Virus record (IMG/VR): IMGVR_UViG_3300009378_000054
Location: 1 to 26,318 of that record
Strand: one strand, 5' to 3'
DNA length: 26,318 nt
From: a virus
Below the pieces are notes generated by a model that searched no databases, was not told the DNA's origin, and was given only the letters and a program-made list of their open reading frames with translations. Positions within the stretch are counted from its first letter, which is position 1; each line of letters starts with the position of its first letter. This document shows positions 9,001 through 23,988 of the stretch, piece after piece. A program made the translations under genes and the position numbers.

Positions 9001-9588
9001 ATGGACTTCGGAGCGATGTTCTCAGGAGCAGGAGATTGGATATCTGGGCTATTCTCTGGGTTTACTTTTGCCGAAGGGGGCCCGGCGGATAAGAAGTTCG
9101 CTAGATTTGCTACTGGCGGAATGATTCAAGGAGCTGGAGGCCCAACAGAGGATAAGATACCTGCTTGGCTATCTGATGGCGAATACGTAGTAAACGCAGC
9201 AGCCACAGCACAGTATAGACCTATTTTAGAGTCAATTAACGCTAAAGAGTATGCTAAAGGTGGTTTTGCTAAGTTTGCTAAAGGTGGATTTGCTAAGTTC
9301 TCTGAAGGCGGCATAAATTCTGTAGAGCAAGCTCTACTGGATAATGCTTCTGGAAATACTGGTATCAAGCCTATACCTCAAAGCAAAGTAGGAAATACCG
9401 AAGTTAGCAACAATGTTAATGTAAGTGTAAATGTCACTAACGGTAATGCTTCAGTAGACGTAGATGCAGGAAGTTCTAATGAGATGGATGCAGAGCAATC
9501 TAAGGCATTAGGTTCAATGATTGGACAGAGAGTACAAGAGCAGCTTCTAGAAGAACAGAAGCCTGGTGGAATTTTAAGTAGTTATTAA
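1..9588 (+). CDS. H: Phage tail tape measure protein (lambda gpH-like), 5' partial
   Basis: The reading frame is open from base 1, so the gene begins upstream. The ATG at 190 is internal, because the preceding 63 codons are a continuous Gly/Thr/Ser-rich linker. At least 3195 residues are visible, against 853 in lambda H. This protein runs down the tail lumen, sets tail length and usually takes part in DNA delivery. Counting codons from base 1, residues about 99-263 form the conserved tape-measure domain, with the hallmark 'AEPELLDELGIILRL' followed by a basic/alanine helix. Hydrophobic stretches lie near residues 300-320 and 659-682. Residues about 750-1900 are largely charged coiled coil. 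Three 44-residue GEYV/INA modules follow (5785, 6319, 9112), plus a related 'GDTELAHVNPIEAEIL' motif near 7999. A possible GNAT-like domain lies at 6562-6870. The C terminus ends in 'KPGGILSSY', as usual for proteins that dock on the tip complex. Identity is sure; domain boundaries are by eye. Confidence 0.96.
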   Translation, partial: RVTKATNARADQVSNTRAGIGGGIGRGTRGGGTGGGGTSGGSTSYKQNRGIIGTKGGGGDFSHMASGMGGFVGVYAEIAAKTFALGAAFRALKEAADFGVLIKGMTAYQNVTGSALLSITSDIQKITQGTVEFKQAAQGVTMATAAGFDPEQIRAMGTAATNAGMALGRDLGDAYDRVIKGVTKAEPELLDELGIILRLETASKKYAKRLNEQDSTLNKSAKNLTTYEKQQAVLAEVLEQADKKFGKLGNTMEGHANSVTKLGTALSDLALKTADKALDVDVFFGVGSIKDLMAGLAESASAVITALAALAAFLVTGLMPKTGKFTTDFQNQATKFSDSAISMQSSMAKGGGSIKAWAQEFDGLNKSTGKQTDWLEGFQDTVESISTGMENPGKSVQSVFENMKNSYEAFDTAVKDGDPFDTEFENLEKVVGPKLSKTLKGLTKTAADTSEGVSAIGKSMSASLFEAVDGEVSKLDAAGETVGNLVNKELGINAKMGIRDLKDLRLQMLKTLDPAQYAKEMDKLVDSTSSAMSRGIRRGETFLLNQAVLGAKKKSLKAQGMGAIQQKRIEEGLASSFEEATAQAKKYKSEVGKVLDDMEEKAESRNKKETKRFLKTRKSARGLIRTMRNVGASITAANMKYGTFVAAFGRGMLNMTMKAVQFVAIYQMVESMVKGLAKAFGYTTNYVTDATSAAESFGEELVNQETKWIGYKNQLSLFTDGIEGFTQGMSHSSSTLESFGDSLDTMSTKYAMAYSNMTEGDKAGEWWSDLVFWQDSLEEQLEKQTAGIKKAIQNSGYLKELVASTKGIDVDNLTIINSDGKRSEGLVRLQRQLKKSTEASKKYQDSLKELMKGYESVGKAAEEFDKSILTSTKFDTLVDEASRLKTSFFNAFEDPKGVEMFEENLQTAIRAAKTARNTLDGISLSPKSVLGGWTEDEITSFNMSKDIESAMLKASKDMSSKLGIATNAADTQQAIREGKTAKGHFNKEIQIQAAGSALSTILEGYRGDFLAHLSDEKWEELSETIFNKVNTGLRTLKVKDKSLKASVHGGLGHKLVSGVDPKQVSKVLQDTVNSQITDSMIATGFYQKAISSQVEGMREVHVSAIETLIGEDRGYLEGLADNIKDRKGFLEATDILNEGIKKYLNYVKEAQRQSRYLQGEITLAAEASKKLVSTGTSSDLAASLTTENKVIDLKKKQIQLVITQLRLSDKTKEQQEAIAQEQKKLLNLEESKLSSIQILHQAITAEVKLQHGFYAESVGLVSQLSSALESIGSMTKSQSALLTFTTKKQLAVNTAIDAWLALESKYQKDLKNTDNKDKLTRDYNARKQIVGDTLTTAVKLAEIEVDYSYLEHKLDIYGKLADQASAFKEISSELLGIQTTNNSVTESISILRKRDLDVSKLYLENQRELTELRERNALAKQHGISEETERLHRSEKAHLAKVYKAKQNILKLEAQAALNNLRETSYLDSINRNLLAEEELNSAKLTSSIHINNVKAREVRLENIKKKFDVKALQHEHNVLKIKEKLLSENLTAWDQQNLLRDISSEILEMEKEKVEVMEEYVVGLKEAHEAKKRIGEATLDDELYYRIQEMKDAMPSTIDSAANVMLGSINSAIDSMASNIKEGEGPYGKGGFEDFAAEQWRTAGDSLIDSGAEKLKVASASLMLGSGYVTPEERAVEALKKQEVNNHFLFDIIKVLEDIRDQRSNIASDVASERAKAEDNYNKSYKAASKIDPDTASDLLIEALNLGVSSTQELTESIKALTETMAPVIEEEKKRKAEELANRAFNKDFDKVSSVNDIHDAEIASERLNDMFLAASKINDLQDASIAEELANEARILKEVRNKEVTARNNFLDTVEEMTSALDTFVDSDIFNNFRNSDAYKGVVTKNSPMLIEESTYQPFVKGTKIVDDSHTVQDREDRKRGAEFYSAGGHVAGTGGPKQDNVAAWLSQGEFVVNAEAAARNRAFLDIINAGGSVPGFAEGTRPDGMISGGIYDAINPEVTRILIETNSHVSTITKLIETQVHNSQAIIRELVDDIDTTIAFELGAPMQDFMMFIESDMAPVLDKLSSTLDVLTKDYKAVKDFSVVDWATPDMFKSTEHTTVSKAAGGHISGPGGPKEDKIPAWLSNGEYVINAASTKKHGALIEAINADTVPAFANGGKAESKYAKFADGAKVNTKALRALSEGRFSKGVSFQHWRPTGQLHGSITGLKGGKEVAGLSYSLSKDLTKITGIGIQAGKGVFSTQLLAEVLKHNPLVKSIDPGELSKQGLKAMGNWRTLAASKGITILPAVNEKTVVTPKGNRVLVSNNPAITDLHNKGNKIFTDVNSGNRQWAGSRDDLPKGNTDWKAGRHSKFNRYDRSKFSNFGSKDIKALRAGTVPSFSQSNLFGNNQGFDQKWLKGTGHQPTLPGMDSKNVYTDKWKKKFISDLAKHGRSSSQLDLFPQNRLPFTGPGISRSSGPSMRANAARFGKSFLKWGLGPAGIGISIAELIDWYMESDEATKSVMDNVINLGPTHGVDPITRKKFNKGGLASDSTLDNWLNFGAGVSGAKAIEFLINSQGAGKGWLPNSMFEKAFGMKGSSSAWWQAGKMPFGLQGSFFGAKPTMGGTLGLAGLAGWGGFELGKMMSPEAAKYWDEEALNGYSRTKGMFGFANGGLASKGRNGDTELAHVNPIEAEILKAMGGSGTINPSTGLREYAQGSKAKAVNIKSKTQEDLLTAVKELSKEQADTLLEQLEYFKNVFDFRKGELNEEEKNWKKFNESEAVKSFESATGVEAKALVQAFGASFEMELGNLFKTGKFDAKSMLSTFATSVSTAFMNKGTALAVAGVEDLGKSMFTSMFGPEEGDALTKLKGEGFKGLNAEVVGDKFGGSKKEGSWWSNIFGEGSKGVVDAAERTGVLPTKGLASKALEASEDDTVMSSLKEKLSGDESIFSDISNWGTKVMDSVSGVFKEDGFLGGIWKSIGDFGGELMDGISGLFSGGEAGGGFGSMFSGITDWFKGMDFGAMFSGAGDWISGLFSGFTFAEGGPADKKFARFATGGMIQGAGGPTEDKIPAWLSDGEYVVNAAATAQYRPILESINAKEYAKGGFAKFAKGGFAKFSEGGINSVEQALLDNASGNTGIKPIPQSKVGNTEVSNNVNVSVNVTNGNASVDVDAGSSNEMDAEQSKALGSMIGQRVQEQLLEEQKPGGILSSY
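25..171 (+). other. Gly-rich low-complexity linker in tape measure
   Basis: In the tape-measure frame this stretch encodes a glycine-dominated segment with Thr, Ser and Arg, built from short GGT/GGA/GGG runs such as 'GIGGGIGRGTRGGGTGGGG'. It separates an unseen N-terminal part from the conserved tape-measure domain. It is probably a flexible hinge; no specific function can be read from it. Confidence 0.75.
5785..5916 (+). repeat. Tape-measure GEYV module, copy 1 of 3
   Basis: A 44-residue unit starting 'AGGHVAGTGGPKQDNVAAWL', then 'SQGEFVVNA', and ending '...IINA'. It is followed by a short tail, 'GGSVPGFAEG'. The pattern G-G-h-x-x-G-x-G-G-P-x-x-D-x-[IV]-x-A-W-L-S-x-G-E-[YF]-V-[IV]-N-A recurs exactly in copies 2 and 3. 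Related modules are common in long tape measure proteins; I know of no established function for them. Confidence 0.9.
6319..6450 (+). repeat. Tape-measure GEYV module, copy 2 of 3
   Basis: A second 44-residue unit, starting 'AGGHISGPGGPKEDKIPAWL' and continuing 'SNGEYVINA'. It has the same length as copies 1 and 3 and the same ending, a long helix finishing in 'AINA', then 'VPAFANGG'. Copies 1 and 2 lie close together. Copy 3 is separated from copy 2 by almost 900 residues that hold the GNAT-like region and the glycine-rich C-terminal part. Confidence 0.92.
6562..6870 (+). other. Possible degenerate GNAT-like domain inside tape measure
   Basis: The segment reads like strand-strand-strand ('QLHGSITGL', 'KEVAGLSYSL', 'KITGIGIQ'), then a loop and helix 'AGKGVFSTQLLAEVL', then 'VKSIDPGELSKQG' and a final helix 'LKAMGNWRTLAASKGI'. 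This order resembles the core of GNAT acetyltransferase folds: beta-4, the acetyl-CoA pyrophosphate loop, helix 3 and beta-5. The usual R/Q-x-x-G-x-G/A loop is present only in degenerate form (Q-A-G-K-G-V), so enzymatic activity is doubtful. This is inference from pattern; a structure prediction would decide it. Confidence 0.35.
7981..8091 (+). other. GDTELAHVNP motif segment in tape measure
   Basis: Encodes 'NGDTELAHVNPIEAEILKAM' followed by 'GGSGTINPSTGLREY', just after a 'FANGGLA' sequence of the kind that borders the GEYV modules. The layout (GG start, acidic centre, 'NP.EA' helix, GGSG/NPxTGL tail) suggests a second, related family of small modules that recurs in long tape measures. I do not know its function. 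Confidence 0.55.
9112..9243 (+). repeat. Tape-measure GEYV module, copy 3 of 3
   Basis: A third 44-residue unit, starting 'TGGMIQGAGGPTEDKIPAWL', then 'SDGEYVVNA' and ending 'ESINA'. It is closer to copy 2 (EDKIPAWLS.GEYV) than to copy 1. It lies near the protein's C terminus, directly before the FAKGG tandem repeat. Confidence 0.92.
9253..9300 (+). repeat. 24-bp tandem duplication (AKGGFAKF twice)
   Basis: Two adjacent 24-base copies (9253-9276 and 9277-9300) differ at only two bases, and each encodes AKGGFAKF. They are preceded by 'YAKGG'-like and followed by 'SEGG'-like variants. This looks like recent slippage in the flexible link between the last GEYV module and the tip-binding C terminus of the tape measure. 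Confidence 0.9.
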
Positions 9589-18435: not shown

Positions 18436-19554
18436 ATGGCAAATTGGGATCACCCTATACTATCTAGTCTATATACAGACTTTGTAGATGAAGTAAAGAA
18501 TAGAGACGCTGACGTCGCTAGACAGTTTAGAGAGTACGGAACCAATAGTGTTCTAGGTACAGGAACTATTGTACAAGGAACCGTTAGATTCGATGGAAGC
18601 AAATGGCTAACTTGGAATGGAACTCAGTGGGAGGATTTAGCGTCTGAGTACGATATAGATGTTACTACTGTTAAAGGAGTCGCTCCCTCAGCTACAGGCG
18701 GTCCTAATACTCTACCTTTGTGTAATAACACTACCCAGGCTCAACTATCCGCCGACTTATTAGACGGGTACCACGCGGGTAATACCTCAGGTACTATTCC
18801 TATCTCTAACGGTACTCTAAACGTAAATCTTAATGCAGATATGGTGGATGGGAAGACTGTGGGTAACGCTAATGGTAATATACCTCTATCTAACAGTACC
18901 TTAAATGTAAACCTTAATGCTGATATGGTTGATGGTAATAATGCTAGTAATAGTAGTGGCGATATACCTATTTCTAATGGTACAGTCAATACCAACCTTA
19001 ATGCAGACTTATTAGATGGATATCACGCGGGTAATGCTAATGGAGACATTCCTATTTCAAATGGCGTACTTAACGTGAACCTTAATGCGGATATGGTGGA
19101 TGGCAAAACTGTTGGTAACGCTAATGGTAATTTACCTATATCTAATGGCACGGTATGTACTAACTTGAATGCCGAGTTCATTGGAGGAACTAATTTAGCA
19201 GGGCTATCCTTAGCCCACTCGCACCCATATCTGCCTACGGCGGGGGGTACGGTGTCGGGGGACCTAACGGTAACCGGTAATTTTACCGAAAGCTCTGATA
19301 TTGCTTTGAAGTATGACATTAACCCTATTTCTGGAGCTTTAGATACTATTAGTAAACTTACCGGTAGTACGTACAAGTGGAGGGCAAACGATAAACCTTC
19401 TATGGGATTAATCGCACAGGAGGTAGAGAAGGTACTACCAGACGCAGTAACTTATGATGAAGCAGGCGAGGCTACGGGGGTACAATACACTAGACTAATC
19501 GCTGTACTAATTGAAGCAGTAAAAGACTTAAACACTAAATTGGAGAATAAATAA
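18436..19554 (+). CDS. Tail fibre with C-terminal S74 self-cleaving chaperone
   Basis: A 372-residue fibre protein. Residues 1-80 form a probable attachment domain ('NWDHPILSSLYTDFVDEVKN', 'RFDGSKWLTWNGTQWEDL'). Residues 106-273 are six 28-residue repeats with the core 'NLNAD[ML][VL]DG...GN..G.[IL]P[IL]SNGT'. A short shaft, 'LPTAGGTVSGDLTVTGNFTE', leads to an S74 intramolecular chaperone of about 86 residues. Ser287 and Lys292 in 'SDIALK' match the catalytic Ser/Lys dyad spacing of that family, and 'MGLIAQEVEKVLPDAV' and the final helix 'LIAVLIEAVKDLNTKLENK' are typical. It probably folds as a trimer and then cuts off the chaperone. AAGGAG at 18421 is a good ribosome site. The next start overlaps the stop (TAATG). 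Confidence 0.9.
   Translation: MANWDHPILSSLYTDFVDEVKNRDADVARQFREYGTNSVLGTGTIVQGTVRFDGSKWLTWNGTQWEDLASEYDIDVTTVKGVAPSATGGPNTLPLCNNTTQAQLSADLLDGYHAGNTSGTIPISNGTLNVNLNADMVDGKTVGNANGNIPLSNSTLNVNLNADMVDGNNASNSSGDIPISNGTVNTNLNADLLDGYHAGNANGDIPISNGVLNVNLNADMVDGKTVGNANGNLPISNGTVCTNLNAEFIGGTNLAGLSLAHSHPYLPTAGGTVSGDLTVTGNFTESSDIALKYDINPISGALDTISKLTGSTYKWRANDKPSMGLIAQEVEKVLPDAVTYDEAGEATGVQYTRLIAVLIEAVKDLNTKLENK
18751..19254 (+). repeat. Six tandem 84-bp (28-residue) fibre repeats
   Basis: Units start at 18751, 18835, 18919, 19003, 19087 and 19171, exactly 84 bases apart; the last is the most diverged ('AEFIGG'). Units 1 and 4 share 'ADLLDGYHAGN' and units 2 and 5 share 'ADMVDGKTVGNANGN', so the array may have grown by duplicating blocks of three. 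In frame it forms the fibre shaft. Confidence 0.92.
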
Positions 19555-19898: not shown

Positions 19899-20275
19899 TA
19901 GATGTTCACCTTACAGTAATGGAGTACCCCATTGTCGATGTAAGTGTCCAAGCGCCTGATGAGATAGATTTATCTATTACAGAAGAAACCACTATTGTTA
20001 CTGCATCTGAATTATCTTTTAGCCAGTTGGCAAAATATGTGTCATACACAGGGCACGGCAATTTAGTATCTCAAAACGTTCAAGATGCTATATCCGAGCT
20101 TTCAGATAATTTATTTCAACAAGGAACGGAACCTACTAGCGGAGTTAATGAGGGCGACCTTTGGTATGATACTACCAACGATAGACTTATGGTTTATAGT
20201 ACTATTGCCGGAGCCTCCTCTTGGGAAGAGGTAGTAATGCAAAATCAGGGCATGGTAGACGGGGGAGAGTTCTAG
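19895..20275 (+). CDS. Small fibre-associated protein with GDLWYDT motif
   Basis: A 126-residue protein. The C-terminal half has 'NVQDAISELSDNLFQQGTEP' and 'NEGDLWYDTTNDRLMVYS', a module found in many phage fibre proteins, where it forms a small beta hairpin repeat near the attachment end. The N-terminal half ('VHLTVMEYPIVDVSVQ') is beta-rich and not recognised. The start overlaps the previous stop as ATGA. It is the last gene before the gap with the consensus promoter, so it may end the first fibre block. It is probably structural; its exact place is unknown. Confidence 0.6.
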   Translation: MIDVHLTVMEYPIVDVSVQAPDEIDLSITEETTIVTASELSFSQLAKYVSYTGHGNLVSQNVQDAISELSDNLFQQGTEPTSGVNEGDLWYDTTNDRLMVYSTIAGASSWEEVVMQNQGMVDGGEF

Positions 20276-20315
20276 AAATACGATTTATTTTTGGAAAGGT
20301 GGGGAAAAAATTTAC

Positions 20316-20344
20316 TTGACATTTACCCCGCATTTCGGTATAAT
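20316..20344 (+). promoter_or_regulatory. Perfect consensus sigma-70 promoter
   Basis: TTGACA at 20316-20321, exactly 17 bases, then TATAAT at 20339-20344: both hexamers and the spacing are ideal. An AAAAAATTT tract just upstream (20305-20313) could act as an UP element. The start of transcription would be about 20351, giving a leader of about 33 bases to the ATG at 20384. It is expected to be read by the unmodified host RNA polymerase. Confidence 0.88.
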
Positions 20345-20361
20345 GTATTTATAAACTCGAG

Positions 20362-20373
20362 TCCTACATAGGA
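20362..20373 (+). promoter_or_regulatory. Small leader palindrome overlapping the SD of gene 20384
   Basis: TCCTACATAGGA: the four to five outer bases can pair, and the 3' arm AGGA (20370-20373) is the only plausible ribosome binding site, ten bases before the ATG. The stem is too short to be strong, so a regulatory effect is only possible. Confidence 0.35.
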
Positions 20374-20383
20374 TTTTATTAAG

Positions 20384-21223
20384 ATGGCTAGATCAAATAC
20401 GATAGTACTAAAGAGAACTAATGTTCCCGGTAAAATACCAAGTACTCTCAATTTGTCTTCACCAGGCGAGGTAGCAGTAAACTTAGCAGATAATAAGTTA
20501 TTTGTTAGAAATACTACTGACCAAGTCATTGAGTTAACGAGCCAGCCGCTCGGCAACGCTTCAGATGTAAACATAACATCTCCAGCAGATGGGCAAGTAC
20601 TAAGATACAGAGATTCAACTAATGAGTGGGAATCATCAAACTCTTTACGTGTAACATCCTCAGATGGGAACGTTTCTATAGATAATACAGAAGTACTTAA
20701 GTTCGATCAAAATACAGGGTTACGGGTATCAGATTTAGGGAACCACGAAGTTGAAATCAGCTTGGGTTCACACTGGAAAAACCTAGAAGTAGACGGAGAG
20801 TCTACGTTAGTACCAGTTGGTGAAGAAACTTTACGTTTTATTGCCGGCACGGGATTAACAATACAAACAGATAGTTCAACCGCTCCACAGAGCATCGAGT
20901 TTATAGCAAATGAACCTTATCTGAATGCCTTACAGGACGTAGTATTAGATCACACACCGCCGGTCAACGGAGAGATATTAAAATGGAGTAACGACGCATG
21001 GAGACTGTCTACTGGTGTAGATATCCAGCGTTTTGCATTTACAGCTCCAAGTTTCACTTGGAATGTAGCTCATAACCAAGGTACAGATCAATTTATAGAG
21101 AGAATAGTTAGAGAAGACGGGATGCCTATGTTTGCTAATATAGACGTTGTAGATTCAGATAACTTTAAAGTGTATTTTACTGAAGAAGTAACAGGACATA
21201 TAGATGTTATATTCTCAGGATAA
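20384..21223 (+). CDS. Probable tail fibre protein
   Basis: A 279-residue protein. The N-terminal part 'IVLKRTNVPGKIPSTLNLSS' + 'PGEVAVNLADNKLFVRNTTD' is the 'P.L..GEiAiNlaDkkLFvk' attachment motif of many marine phage fibres. Repeated short beta units follow ('ADGQVLRYRDSTNEWESS' and 'VNGEILKWSNDAWRLSTGVD'). The last 65 residues form a terminal domain, 'FTWNVAHNQGTDQFIERIV' ... 'VYFTEEVTGHIDVIFSG', which also appears in the fibre genes at 21502 and 23992. It is the first gene after the consensus promoter. Arginine codons are mixed (AGA with some CGT). Confidence 0.75.
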   Translation: MARSNTIVLKRTNVPGKIPSTLNLSSPGEVAVNLADNKLFVRNTTDQVIELTSQPLGNASDVNITSPADGQVLRYRDSTNEWESSNSLRVTSSDGNVSIDNTEVLKFDQNTGLRVSDLGNHEVEISLGSHWKNLEVDGESTLVPVGEETLRFIAGTGLTIQTDSSTAPQSIEFIANEPYLNALQDVVLDHTPPVNGEILKWSNDAWRLSTGVDIQRFAFTAPSFTWNVAHNQGTDQFIERIVREDGMPMFANIDVVDSDNFKVYFTEEVTGHIDVIFSG

Positions 21224-21235
21224 GGAAGAGAACAG

Positions 21236-21445
21236 ATGATAGAAATAAGAATACCCAGATCAGAACTACATTTAGCAGCGTACTTGAAAAGTCATGGCGC
21301 TGACTTTATGAACTTCTCAGATGGATGCTTTATATTTGAGAGCGACTTACCAGAAACAGAATGGAGAGTCGCTCACAGTAATAGTTGTTGTTTAAAGACA
21401 GACGTAGAGTTATTTACTTTAAAGAAGTTTTTACCAAGACGCTAA
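21236..21445 (+). CDS. Small protein, DUF5659-like
   Basis: A 69-residue protein preceded by AAGGAAGAG (21222-21230). The sequence 'RSELHLAAYLKSHGADFMNF', 'GCFIFESD' and 'DVELFTLKKFLPRR' resembles DUF5659 proteins, small phage proteins with 'LAAyL...G' at the start, an 'F.F' strand in the middle and a final '[FL]...K.L[KP]'. It has two adjacent cysteines. Its function is unknown; the position between fibre genes suggests either an accessory of fibre assembly or an unrelated passenger gene under the promoter at 20316. Confidence 0.6.
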   Translation: MIEIRIPRSELHLAAYLKSHGADFMNFSDGCFIFESDLPETEWRVAHSNSCCLKTDVELFTLKKFLPRR

Positions 21446-21488
21446 GAGACGCGCAGAGACAAAACAAAATTAATTAATAATATTTCTT

Positions 21489-21494
21489 AGGAGG
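21489..21494 (+). promoter_or_regulatory. Strong Shine-Dalgarno for the 668-aa fibre gene
   Basis: AGGAGG (within TTAGGAGGAAATAAT) lies seven bases before the ATG at 21502, in an AT-rich, weakly structured stretch. It is the best ribosome site in the window and agrees with the expression-type codon usage of the gene. Confidence 0.8.
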
Positions 21495-21501
21495 AAATAA
21501 T

Positions 21502-23508
21502 ATGCCAACAACATACCCAATTCATCACGGTATTACGCTTGCAAGCGGATCCGAGATCGAGAACGCTGTAATTGAAACATTAGCGAACGACCCATCCCCT
21601 CTTGTAACAGGACGTGTATGGTACAACTCAACTAGCGGTAAACTTAAAGTTGCCCTAGGCAACCCTGCAGCAGCTTGTGAGCTGGCTTGCGGCTCTACGG
21701 TAACTGATGCAGTAGCGGCTCTACGTTTAGACTTAGAAACACAAATCACTGCTTTAGATAACGATACGTACAGCAAAGCTGAGACGGATGCCGCAGTATC
21801 CGGAGCAATCGACGATCTAGTAGGAGGAGCTCCTGGTCTTCTTGACACATTAAATGAGCTAGCTGCTGCTATCGGTGACGACGCAAACTTCGTTACTACT
21901 ATCCAGCAACAGATTGCTGCTGAAGCTTCTCTTGCTCGTGGAAATGAAGGTTCTCTAACTTTTACAAACGTTACAGCAACAGACCTAACTGATGCAATCA
22001 ATGCCGAAGGAGACCGTGCTAAGAATGCCGAAGCATCTAACACAGCAGCCGTTACTGCAGAAGCTTTAGCTCGTGCTACTGCTGATGGTAACTTAAACTC
22101 TTTAACAACTACTGCTAAAGGTAGTTTAGTTGATGCTGTAAATGAAGTTAATAATGACGTTACTTCTGTACAGAATGAGTTAAACACTACGCAAACTGGT
22201 GCTGGCCTATCTGATACTGGTTCTTACACTGCTAATGCAGGGTCTAACTACATCACTGCTGCAACTACTCTTGCAGGCGCAGATGATTTACTAGATGCAC
22301 AAGCTAAGGCTAATGCTGACGCTGTTGCACAAGAGGTTCTTGATCGCGGTGCAGCAGTTTCTGGTGAGGCTACTACTCGTGCTAACGCTGATACTGCATT
22401 ACAGGGTCAGATTGACACTAATGTTGCGGATATCTCTACTAATGCTACGGGTATCTCCACTAACGCTACTGCAATCACAGCGGCCGAAGGACGTATTACT
22501 ACCTTAGAAAACGACGGTTCTGTTTCTGCCCTACAAGGCGAGTTAGATGTAACTCAAGTGGGTGCTGGTTTAGCAGCTTCTGGGGCATACTCTGCAAATG
22601 CAGCTATGAACTACATTGGTACGGCTACTTCTCTTGCAGACGCTGACGAGAAACTAGACGCACAAGCAAAAGCTAATGCTGATGATACTGCTGCCGAAAT
22701 CGTTCGTGCTACTAATGCAGAAGGCCAGCTACAGTCTCAAATCACTGCTGCTGTTAGCTCTAACACAAGTACACAAGGTGAGCTTGATACTGTAGAAGCT
22801 GCTGCTGGTTTAAATGCTGACGGTACTTACACTCCTTCTCTAACAAGCAACTACGCTGCTGGTGCTGCTTCTCTTAAGAACGCAGATGAGCTAATTGATA
22901 CTCAAGTTAAGACTAACACAGATGATATTTCTACTGAAACAGCTGCACGTATTTCTGCTGACTCTACTCTACAGACTAACATCAATACTGTATCAGGAAC
23001 TGCAGCTACTAATGCCGCAAACCTAGCTGCTGAGATTACTGATGCTCGTACTGAAGAAGCTCGTATCGAAGGAAAAGTAGATACTAATGCGGGTTCAATC
23101 GCTACTAATGCTTCTGATATTGCTGCTGAGGTTGCTCGTGCAGGTAATGCAGAGGCTGGGTTAGCTACTGACATCACTACTGAAGCAACAGCTCGCTCTA
23201 ATGCAGACGCTGCTTTACGTACTGATATTGACGCTAACACAGCTTCAATCGCATCTCAGAATACTGCTATTCGTGGTGACTATAATGCTACAGTATTTAC
23301 TCACCAGTCTGGTGCGGCGTCTATGGTTCACGCTATCCCTCATAACTTAAACAGCACTTTCGTTGAAGTAAGTGTATTTATGTTCTCTGGCGGTAAGTGG
23401 CAGAATGACATCGCTTTGATTGAAGAAGTAGATGCTAACAACCTAACAATCACTATGACAGATTCTCGTGATGTTAAAGTTGTTGTAAGATCTGCGGCTT
23501 CTATCTAA
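21502..23508 (+). CDS. Large repeat-containing tail fibre protein
   Basis: A 668-residue protein. The N terminus has 'VTGRVWYNSTSGKLKVALG' (the WY[ND]T fibre module) and 'APGLLDTLNELAAAIGDDAN', a motif found in many phage fibres. The middle is alpha-helical, rich in Ala, Thr, Asn and Asp, with three long repeats starting at residues 223, 344 and 424: 'QxELdttqxgAGLxxxGxYt', then 'NYixxAtsLxxADelxDaQ'. Many short 'TEATARSNADAALRTDID' helices follow. The last 70 residues are the shared 'W/H..PHNLNSTFVEVSVF' terminal domain. Of its 18 arginines I count 15 CGT, two CGC and one AGA, unlike the AGA-rich neighbours. It probably forms a long trimeric rod. Confidence 0.8.
   Translation: MPTTYPIHHGITLASGSEIENAVIETLANDPSPLVTGRVWYNSTSGKLKVALGNPAAACELACGSTVTDAVAALRLDLETQITALDNDTYSKAETDAAVSGAIDDLVGGAPGLLDTLNELAAAIGDDANFVTTIQQQIAAEASLARGNEGSLTFTNVTATDLTDAINAEGDRAKNAEASNTAAVTAEALARATADGNLNSLTTTAKGSLVDAVNEVNNDVTSVQNELNTTQTGAGLSDTGSYTANAGSNYITAATTLAGADDLLDAQAKANADAVAQEVLDRGAAVSGEATTRANADTALQGQIDTNVADISTNATGISTNATAITAAEGRITTLENDGSVSALQGELDVTQVGAGLAASGAYSANAAMNYIGTATSLADADEKLDAQAKANADDTAAEIVRATNAEGQLQSQITAAVSSNTSTQGELDTVEAAAGLNADGTYTPSLTSNYAAGAASLKNADELIDTQVKTNTDDISTETAARISADSTLQTNINTVSGTAATNAANLAAEITDARTEEARIEGKVDTNAGSIATNASDIAAEVARAGNAEAGLATDITTEATARSNADAALRTDIDANTASIASQNTAIRGDYNATVFTHQSGAASMVHAIPHNLNSTFVEVSVFMFSGGKWQNDIALIEEVDANNLTITMTDSRDVKVVVRSAASI
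22168..22990 (+). repeat. Three imperfect fibre repeats
   Basis: Units begin at 22168 ('VQNELNTTQTGAGLSDTGSY'), 22531 ('LQGELDVTQVGAGLAASGAY') and 22771 ('TQGELDTVEAAAGLNADGTY'). Each continues with '..NY...A[TA][ST]L..AD[DE].[LI]D[AT]Q.K.N.DD'. Spacing differs (121 and 80 residues) because the helical linkers between units vary in length. Confidence 0.85.
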
Positions 23509-23520
23509 GTAGATGGCGTA

Positions 23521-23548
23521 AGGTGAGTGCAAGAAATTGCACTCACCT
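23521..23548 (+). ncRNA. Hairpin A: 12-bp stem with GAAA tetraloop
   Basis: AGGTGAGTGCAA (23521-23532), loop GAAA, TTGCACTCACCT (23537-23548): a perfect 12-base-pair stem capped by a stable GNRA-type loop, 12 bases after the stop of the 668-aa fibre gene. No T-run follows, so it is not an intrinsic terminator. Its 3' arm is also the 5' arm of hairpin B. It could protect the 3' end of the upstream message or be an RNase III site. Confidence 0.8.
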
Positions 23549-23583
23549 ACTATACAATGTAAGCATTCTATAGTAGGTGAGTG
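23540..23583 (+). promoter_or_regulatory. Hairpin B: long stem hiding the RBS of the 53-aa gene
   Basis: CACTCACCTACTATA (23540-23554) pairs perfectly with TATAGTAGGTGAGTG (23569-23583). Inside it, after one C-C mismatch, AATG pairs with CATT around a TAAG loop. The 3' arm contains the only Shine-Dalgarno (AGGTGAG, 23575-23581) for the ATG at 23588. Hairpins A and B share bases 23540-23548 and cannot form together. A leaves the site open and B closes it. This is the layout of a translational switch (inference). Confidence 0.7.
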
Positions 23584-23587
23584 AGAT

Positions 23588-23749
23588 ATGAGAAAGACAG
23601 AGATTGATAAACATTTAGATAAAACGGATAAGGAACTACAGGCTCTAATGTCTGAGATACCTAAGCTATCTAAAGAGGAACTAATTGGTAGAGTACATAC
23701 TATTATGCATAACTACCACACTTTAGGTTCCTTATTTAAAGAATTATGA
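23588..23749 (+). CDS. 53-aa unknown protein behind the hairpin switch
   Basis: A short ORF of 53 codons, beginning 'MRKTEIDKHLDKTDKELQAL' and ending 'NYHTLGSLFKEL'. It is charged and probably helical (two amphipathic helices around 'EIPKLSKEEL'), with no signal peptide or membrane segment. I do not recognise it. Support as a real gene: AGGTGAG at a fitting distance, an ATGA overlap with the next gene (23746-23749), and the same AGA/CTA-type codon use as the phage core genes. Its place behind two exclusive hairpins suggests controlled expression. Confidence 0.65.
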   Translation: MRKTEIDKHLDKTDKELQALMSEIPKLSKEELIGRVHTIMHNYHTLGSLFKEL

Positions 23750-23988
23750 ATAAGCAAGAGGAGCTCGGAGTATACTCCTGGCTTAGCAAGATAAGACAGA
23801 ATTTGTTAGACTTTAAGTCTACATACCCCTCTTACTCTGCTAAATACAGTATGAGGTGGTGTACAGAACAGAAACAGTCTTTATACTACGCTACAAAAAC
23901 CCTAACTAGCGCCGCTTACTTCAAAGGACTAGACCCACGGTCAATGAAGAATAAACAGGCAAATTATAAATATACTAAAGGAAAATAG
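23746..23988 (+). CDS. 80-aa basic protein of unknown function
   Basis: An 80-residue, lysine- and tyrosine-rich protein ('GVYSWLSKIRQNLLDFKSTY', 'KYSMRWCTEQKQSLYYATKT', C-terminal 'NKQANYKYTKGK'). It is likely to be helical, and no domain is recognised. It overlaps the 53-aa gene by ATGA, so it is probably translated by coupling and falls under the same hairpin control. The next fibre gene starts three bases after its stop. The basic C-terminal tail would fit binding to nucleic acid or an acidic partner, but nothing more specific can be said. Confidence 0.65.
   Translation: MNKQEELGVYSWLSKIRQNLLDFKSTYPSYSAKYSMRWCTEQKQSLYYATKTLTSAAYFKGLDPRSMKNKQANYKYTKGK

Follow-up and report, generated by a model that had tools for sequence, protein, structure and literature searches.

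Two adjacent RNA hairpins with conserved structure in a phage tail-fibre operon: a possible intercistronic boundary element

Introduction

Phage T7 early mRNA reportedly contains an RNase III processing site before gene 1.2, which Saito and Richardson are said to have described in 1981. In phage T4, e, soc, 49 and I-TevI are genes whose ribosome sites are sequestered in hairpins (PMC3014915). Stable hairpins have also been connected with the fate of mRNA segments in bacterial operons. A survey in E. coli found a stable hairpin lacking a U-run immediately before the end of 26 of 34 stabilised upstream segments of operons (PMC5927463), and in the puf operon of Rhodobacter capsulatus hairpins were tied to segment stability, according to the statement in PMC7509114 that cites Klug and Cohen 1990.

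Here we analyse a gap between two genes of a phage, present in a 26,318-base virus record given as one strand (IMG/VR record IMGVR_UViG_3300009378_000054, below called the window). In this phage a fibre cluster comes after a lambda-like tail module, and the gap lies within the fibre cluster. An original prediction, made from the sequence, held that three segments of the gap form two mutually exclusive hairpins that would switch the translation of a small gene. We compared this gap with that of related contigs, calculated the energies of the alternative folds and weighed the possible functions of the hairpins.

Results

The gap of interest is 79 nt long and separates a gene for a 668-aa tail fibre from a 53-aa ORF (Table 1). 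Relatives were sought in viral and genome contigs by protein queries and alignments with the 53-aa ORF, the 80-aa ORF that follows it and three fibre proteins. Besides the window, these scans gave only two contigs with this gap: IMG/VR 3300003086_000041 (our record G001, with locus L004 and overlapping loci) and 3300001678_000033 (G002, with L005, L008 and other loci). A search of the phage collection for homologues of this region gave none. Gene order is identical in the window and both relatives, and the C-terminal 79 aa of the 668-aa fibre protein align with 86-92% identity to the two relatives. The 53-aa ORF is 57% and 51% identical to its counterparts, with dN of about 0.28-0.39 versus dS of at least 1.1, and its product is predicted to form a helical hairpin of two helices (pLDDT 91). 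The 80-aa ORF has no good SD and, because of this and its ATGA overlap, it is probably translationally coupled to the 53-aa ORF. Its product is predicted, from a poor model and with low confidence, to be helical. No PHROG or Pfam family was found for either small ORF. Elsewhere in the window, at 18436-19554, a 372-aa protein is encoded whose repeats are of the NLNADMVDG type and which ends in a peptidase S74 (endosialidase chaperone) domain at its C-terminus.

Table 1. Positions of the genes, signals and hairpins discussed in the text (window coordinates unless a locus or record is named)
Feature	Position	Strand	Description
Sigma-70-type promoter	20316..20344	+	perfect, TTGACA-17-TATAAT; conserved with flanks in both relatives
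Counterparts of this promoter	G001:C1:32201-32229; G002:C1:22660-22688		
Upstream tail-fibre gene, 668 aa	21502..23508	+	ORF list; PHROG tail matches; alignment
Hairpin A	23521-23548	+	12 perfect bp, GAAA loop, starts 12 nt past fibre stop codon
Segment 1	23521-23532		
Segment 2	23537-23548		
Segment 3	within 23569-23583		
Hairpin B	23540-23583	+	15 bp + C-C 1x1 mismatch + 4 bp, loop TAAG
Hairpin B, lower stem	23540-23554 with 23569-23583		15 bp
Hairpin B, mismatch	23555/23568		C-C
Hairpin B, upper stem	23556-23559 with 23564-23567		4 bp
SD of 53-aa ORF	23575-23580	+	AGGTGA, inside 3' arm of hairpin B
53-aa ORF	23588..23749	+	ATG at 23588; conserved in both relatives
80-aa ORF	23746..23988	+	ATGA overlap with 53-aa ORF; conserved
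Downstream fibre gene, 428 aa	23992..25278	+	ORF list; own SD AAGGA
Hairpin A, L004	7747-7771		10 bp, 15 nt past stop; AGGTGGGCGC-GTGCT-GTGCTCACCT
Hairpin B, L004	7789-7844		16 bp + mismatch + 5 bp; foot holds AU of start codon
Hairpin A, L005	5514-5537		9 bp, 15 nt past stop; AGGTGGGGG-TTAAGT-CCCCCACTT
Hairpin B, L005	5533-5580		9 bp + mismatch + 11 bp; ends 13 nt before start codon

The strong promoter nearest to the hairpins on their upstream side is that at 20316. Its flanks, CTTGACATTT...GGTATAATGTATTTATAAACTCGAGTCCTA, are conserved ahead of a 279-aa fibre-cluster gene, and it is the probable start of the hairpin-bearing mRNA. Further perfect sigma-70 promoters are present in G001 at 1320 and 9169, which suggests that late modules carry consensus promoters of their own. 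At position 9128 in L020 (G001), before the next promoter, there is an ordinary terminator, CCCCTATAGG..CCTATAGGGGTTTTTT; in this part of L020, at about 9100-9200, the U-run terminator follows a 385-aa gene and lies directly before a perfect sigma-70 promoter. A separate observation is that a sequence resembling the 5' arm of hairpin A, AGGTGGGG/AGGTGAGG, is present at about 20296-20303 of the window and at the same place in L004 and L008. In all three contigs it is found about 20 nt past the stop codon of a 126-aa gene and just before the conserved promoter.

The pairing of segment 1 with segment 2 and of segment 2 with segment 3, as originally described, was confirmed in the window, and so was the location of the SD of the 53-aa ORF within segment 3. 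Segments 1 and 3 are near-identical copies, each complementary to segment 2, and the 3' arm of hairpin A overlaps the 5' arm of hairpin B by 9 nt. In an ungapped stem scan of the 26-kb window, B is the top stem, with a score of 20.8, and A ranks third. The highest score reached in the shuffles was 17.4, and none of 100 dinucleotide shuffles matched B; the folding z of the hairpin region is -4.6. It had also been noted that neither hairpin has a T-run, and in all three contigs both hairpins indeed lack a following U-run. Rfam gave no credible family, the best matches being microRNA models (30.1 against a gathering score of 80), and a look for the hairpin DNA as a mobile or repeated element gave a single occurrence in the window.

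Both relatives have two hairpins in the same gap. B is the top stem of the locus examined in L004 (22.3) and L005 (18.8), with 0 of 100 shuffles matching in each case, and the other scanned parts of these contigs (bases 20001-22268 of G001 excluded) peak at 18.8, which is the U-run terminator, and 15.3. The chance that the top stem falls in this gap in both relatives is, by length alone, (111/19318) x (95/16197), or ~3e-5. Across the three contigs the distance from the end of B to the start codon is 0-13 nt, and each B has one 1x1 mismatch, with 20, 22 and 21 stem positions in the window, L004 and L005, respectively. The original prediction had proposed a search for covariation of the segments in relatives. 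Hairpin A does covary, but the arms of B are unrelated in sequence and cannot be aligned between lineages. The pairs of A were compared by arm position, as MAFFT alignments of this short region misaligned L005. The covariation is at pair 8, which is T-A, C-G and G-C in the three contigs, and at pair 6, which is A-T, G-T and G-C. The changes at pair 6 and at pairs 2 and 9, each G-C or G-T, are compatible with pairing. The DNA divergence among the lineages is about 27%. Because the top stem occupies the same gap in both relatives and hairpin A covaries, the comparison of these three sequences firmly supports the conservation of a two-hairpin RNA element whose structure was kept while its sequence turned over.

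The mutual exclusivity of the two hairpins holds in so far as A and B share 9 nt, but all 12 bp of hairpin A can be present together with the 6+4 bp that make up B's upper half, and the SD is then free. This open state was calculated at -27.0 kcal/mol and full B with the SD paired at -26.8 kcal/mol, both without coaxial stacking of A on upper B, which would favour the open state. When the flanks are included, full B is favoured by about 2 kcal/mol more. The findpath saddle between both states lies at -23.4 kcal/mol, giving a barrier of about 3.5 kcal/mol. With near-equal energies and such a barrier the two states should interconvert quickly, so that hairpin A would not act as a kinetic timer. 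The idea that A holds the ribosome site open for timing therefore finds no kinetic trap on which to act. What stands of the proposed switch is the competition of segments 1 and 3 for segment 2 in the window: the cost of opening the SD is 2.5 kcal/mol and rises to 16.5 kcal/mol when segment 1 is blocked, which indicates that segment 1 counteracts SD sequestration.

The relatives differ strongly in the access to the start codon. Opening the region from -20 to +13 of the 53-aa ORF start costs 9.3 kcal/mol in the window, 27.6 kcal/mol in L004, the highest value among about 50 starts examined, and 2.9 kcal/mol in L005. Control of the ribosome binding site is not conserved across the three contigs, and these strong differences in access indicate that the hairpins were kept rather than RBS masking. 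In L004 the start would be practically closed with B intact, yet the ORF is under protein-level selection, a hint that B may be cleaved or unfolded in vivo. The exclusive pairing is also not shared by the relatives that keep the ORF: L004 has the ORF and both hairpins as separate helices with no bases in common, the kind of outcome that the original prediction had named as speaking against it, and in L005 the A/B overlap is only about 5 nt. With the end of B 13 nt before the AUG in L005, closure of the start by B, which had been part of the switch idea, does not extend to this lineage.

Discussion

We infer a function for the two-hairpin element from these comparisons, and the most likely one is that of an intercistronic RNA boundary, for processing or 3'-end protection, in the tail-fibre operon. 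We hold this tentatively, at a little less than even chances. A dedicated on/off switch is less likely, and the main rival is a translational lock. An mRNA starting from the promoter at 20316 would span the 668-aa fibre gene and then the 53-aa, 80-aa and 428-aa genes. Hairpin A would stand just past a ribosome terminating at the stop codon of the fibre gene. B, whose ~20-22 positions form a near-perfect duplex, would come next, before the following start codon. The mRNA may be cut within or downstream of the element, B being by its size a putative RNase III substrate. The leftover stem would halt 3'-to-5' exonucleases, and the upstream fibre mRNA would then outlast what lies downstream. In the window and L004, where B covers the start of the 53-aa ORF, a cut inside B would in addition expose this start.

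A boundary element of this kind agrees with the position of stable stem-loops between co-directional genes, soon after the stop codon and without a U-run, as in protective hairpins. The near-continuous duplex of about two helical turns is necessary for RNase III, although not sufficient; cleavability was judged by the length of the stem. An RNase III site and 3' protection had been mentioned originally as simpler uses, and as candidate functions they fit better with the stem-loop pair shared by the three contigs. Against a boundary element it may be said that there are three contigs only, that B lies nearer to the start codon than a pure 3'-end guard needs and that a mutational process making perfect palindromes could also leave strong stems.

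In the translational lock, which we consider possible but doubtful, B holds the start of the 53-aa ORF in a helix, and that of the 80-aa ORF through the ATGA coupling, so that the small proteins are scarce or made only after B is cut or melted. The SD inside B in the window, the position of the L004 AUG at B's foot, the very high opening cost of the L004 start and the use of such helices by T4 genes e, soc, 49 and I-TevI (PMC3014915) all agree with it. It is difficult to reconcile with L005, which has both hairpins yet an open start region, and the closure in the window is largely relieved by hairpin A (2.5 versus 16.5 kcal/mol). If the segments instead act as a three-segment switch, the identical 9-nt parts of segments 1 and 3 would take turns on segment 2 through branch migration, with access to the 53-aa ORF set by a bound ribosome, protein or RNA. 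The isoenergetic folds, the low barrier, the effect of blocking segment 1 on the SD and the shorter exchange of about 5 nt in L005 would suit such a mechanism. We find this switch rather improbable: L004 has the ORF and both hairpins but no exchange, the L005 start is open with either hairpin, there is no sign of a ligand or timing device, and a kinetic timer would need a higher barrier. A related proposal, to which we give only a small chance, is a branch-migration rheostat, in which the 9-nt segments, one of them with the SD, exchange between the isoenergetic folds and a terminating ribosome or a protein tips the access to the RBS. If true, this would be ligand-free translational control in a fibre operon, for which other lineages substitute separate hairpins.

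It would be equally surprising to us if the hairpins had no function and were a mutational by-product, i.e. inverted repeats left by template switching (quasipalindrome correction) in a weakly constrained gap. The near-identity of segments 1 and 3, both complementary to segment 2, and the wholesale replacement of B between relatives could be explained in this way, but all three lineages have two hairpins in the same order and at similar distances, and A has compensatory changes over about 27% DNA divergence. Very improbable is a role as a transcription terminator or as a T4-type late promoter within the hairpin that would give transcripts without the 5' arm of B. There is a strong intergenic stem, and a weak -10-like motif, TATACAAT, is present in the 5' arm of B. 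However, an intrinsic terminator needs a G+C-rich stem with a U-run; the U-run is missing in all three contigs, a canonical U-run terminator exists elsewhere in G001, and we rejected this possibility. We also rejected an internal promoter: a scan of the + strand for sigma-70-like sites, as distinct from phage-specific promoters, gave none in the gap, perfect sigma-70 promoters are found at module starts, and in L004 such a transcript would still include B.

If the boundary element is confirmed, it would show how a phage can make two fibre proteins and two small proteins in differing amounts from an apparent single late mRNA, with neither terminators nor additional promoters. The element is also a case of RNA structure retained under wholesale sequence replacement, a kind that escapes sequence searches. 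Beside it, the conserved 53-aa and 80-aa genes belong to no known family.

The RNase III sites of T7 resemble this element as imperfect intergenic duplexes of ~20 bp that precede small genes and whose cleavage could make a start site accessible. They have an internal-loop architecture of their own, and here the cleavage is putative. With the T4 genes the locus shares an SD or AUG in the helix of a longer transcript, in the window and L004. The SD or AUG is thus not in a stable helix in all members, L005 having no such sequestration, and whereas in the well-documented T4 cases transcripts from a late promoter lack the 5' arm, the + strand sigma-70 scan found no promoter within the element that would remove it. 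Multiple hairpins in a polycistronic mRNA are common to the puf operon, where they are linked with differing stability of its segments, and to this locus, where such a role is putative; puf is a bacterial photosynthesis operon with no sequence relation to the phage element. The protective hairpins of E. coli such as malE-malF (PMC5927463), at boundaries of differentially decaying operons, differ from the present case in that here two adjacent hairpins lie in a phage late operon, B reaches the next start and differential decay is putative. Like these hairpins, the phage element is a stable intergenic structure without a U-run just past the upstream gene, a kind of hairpin that is often conserved.
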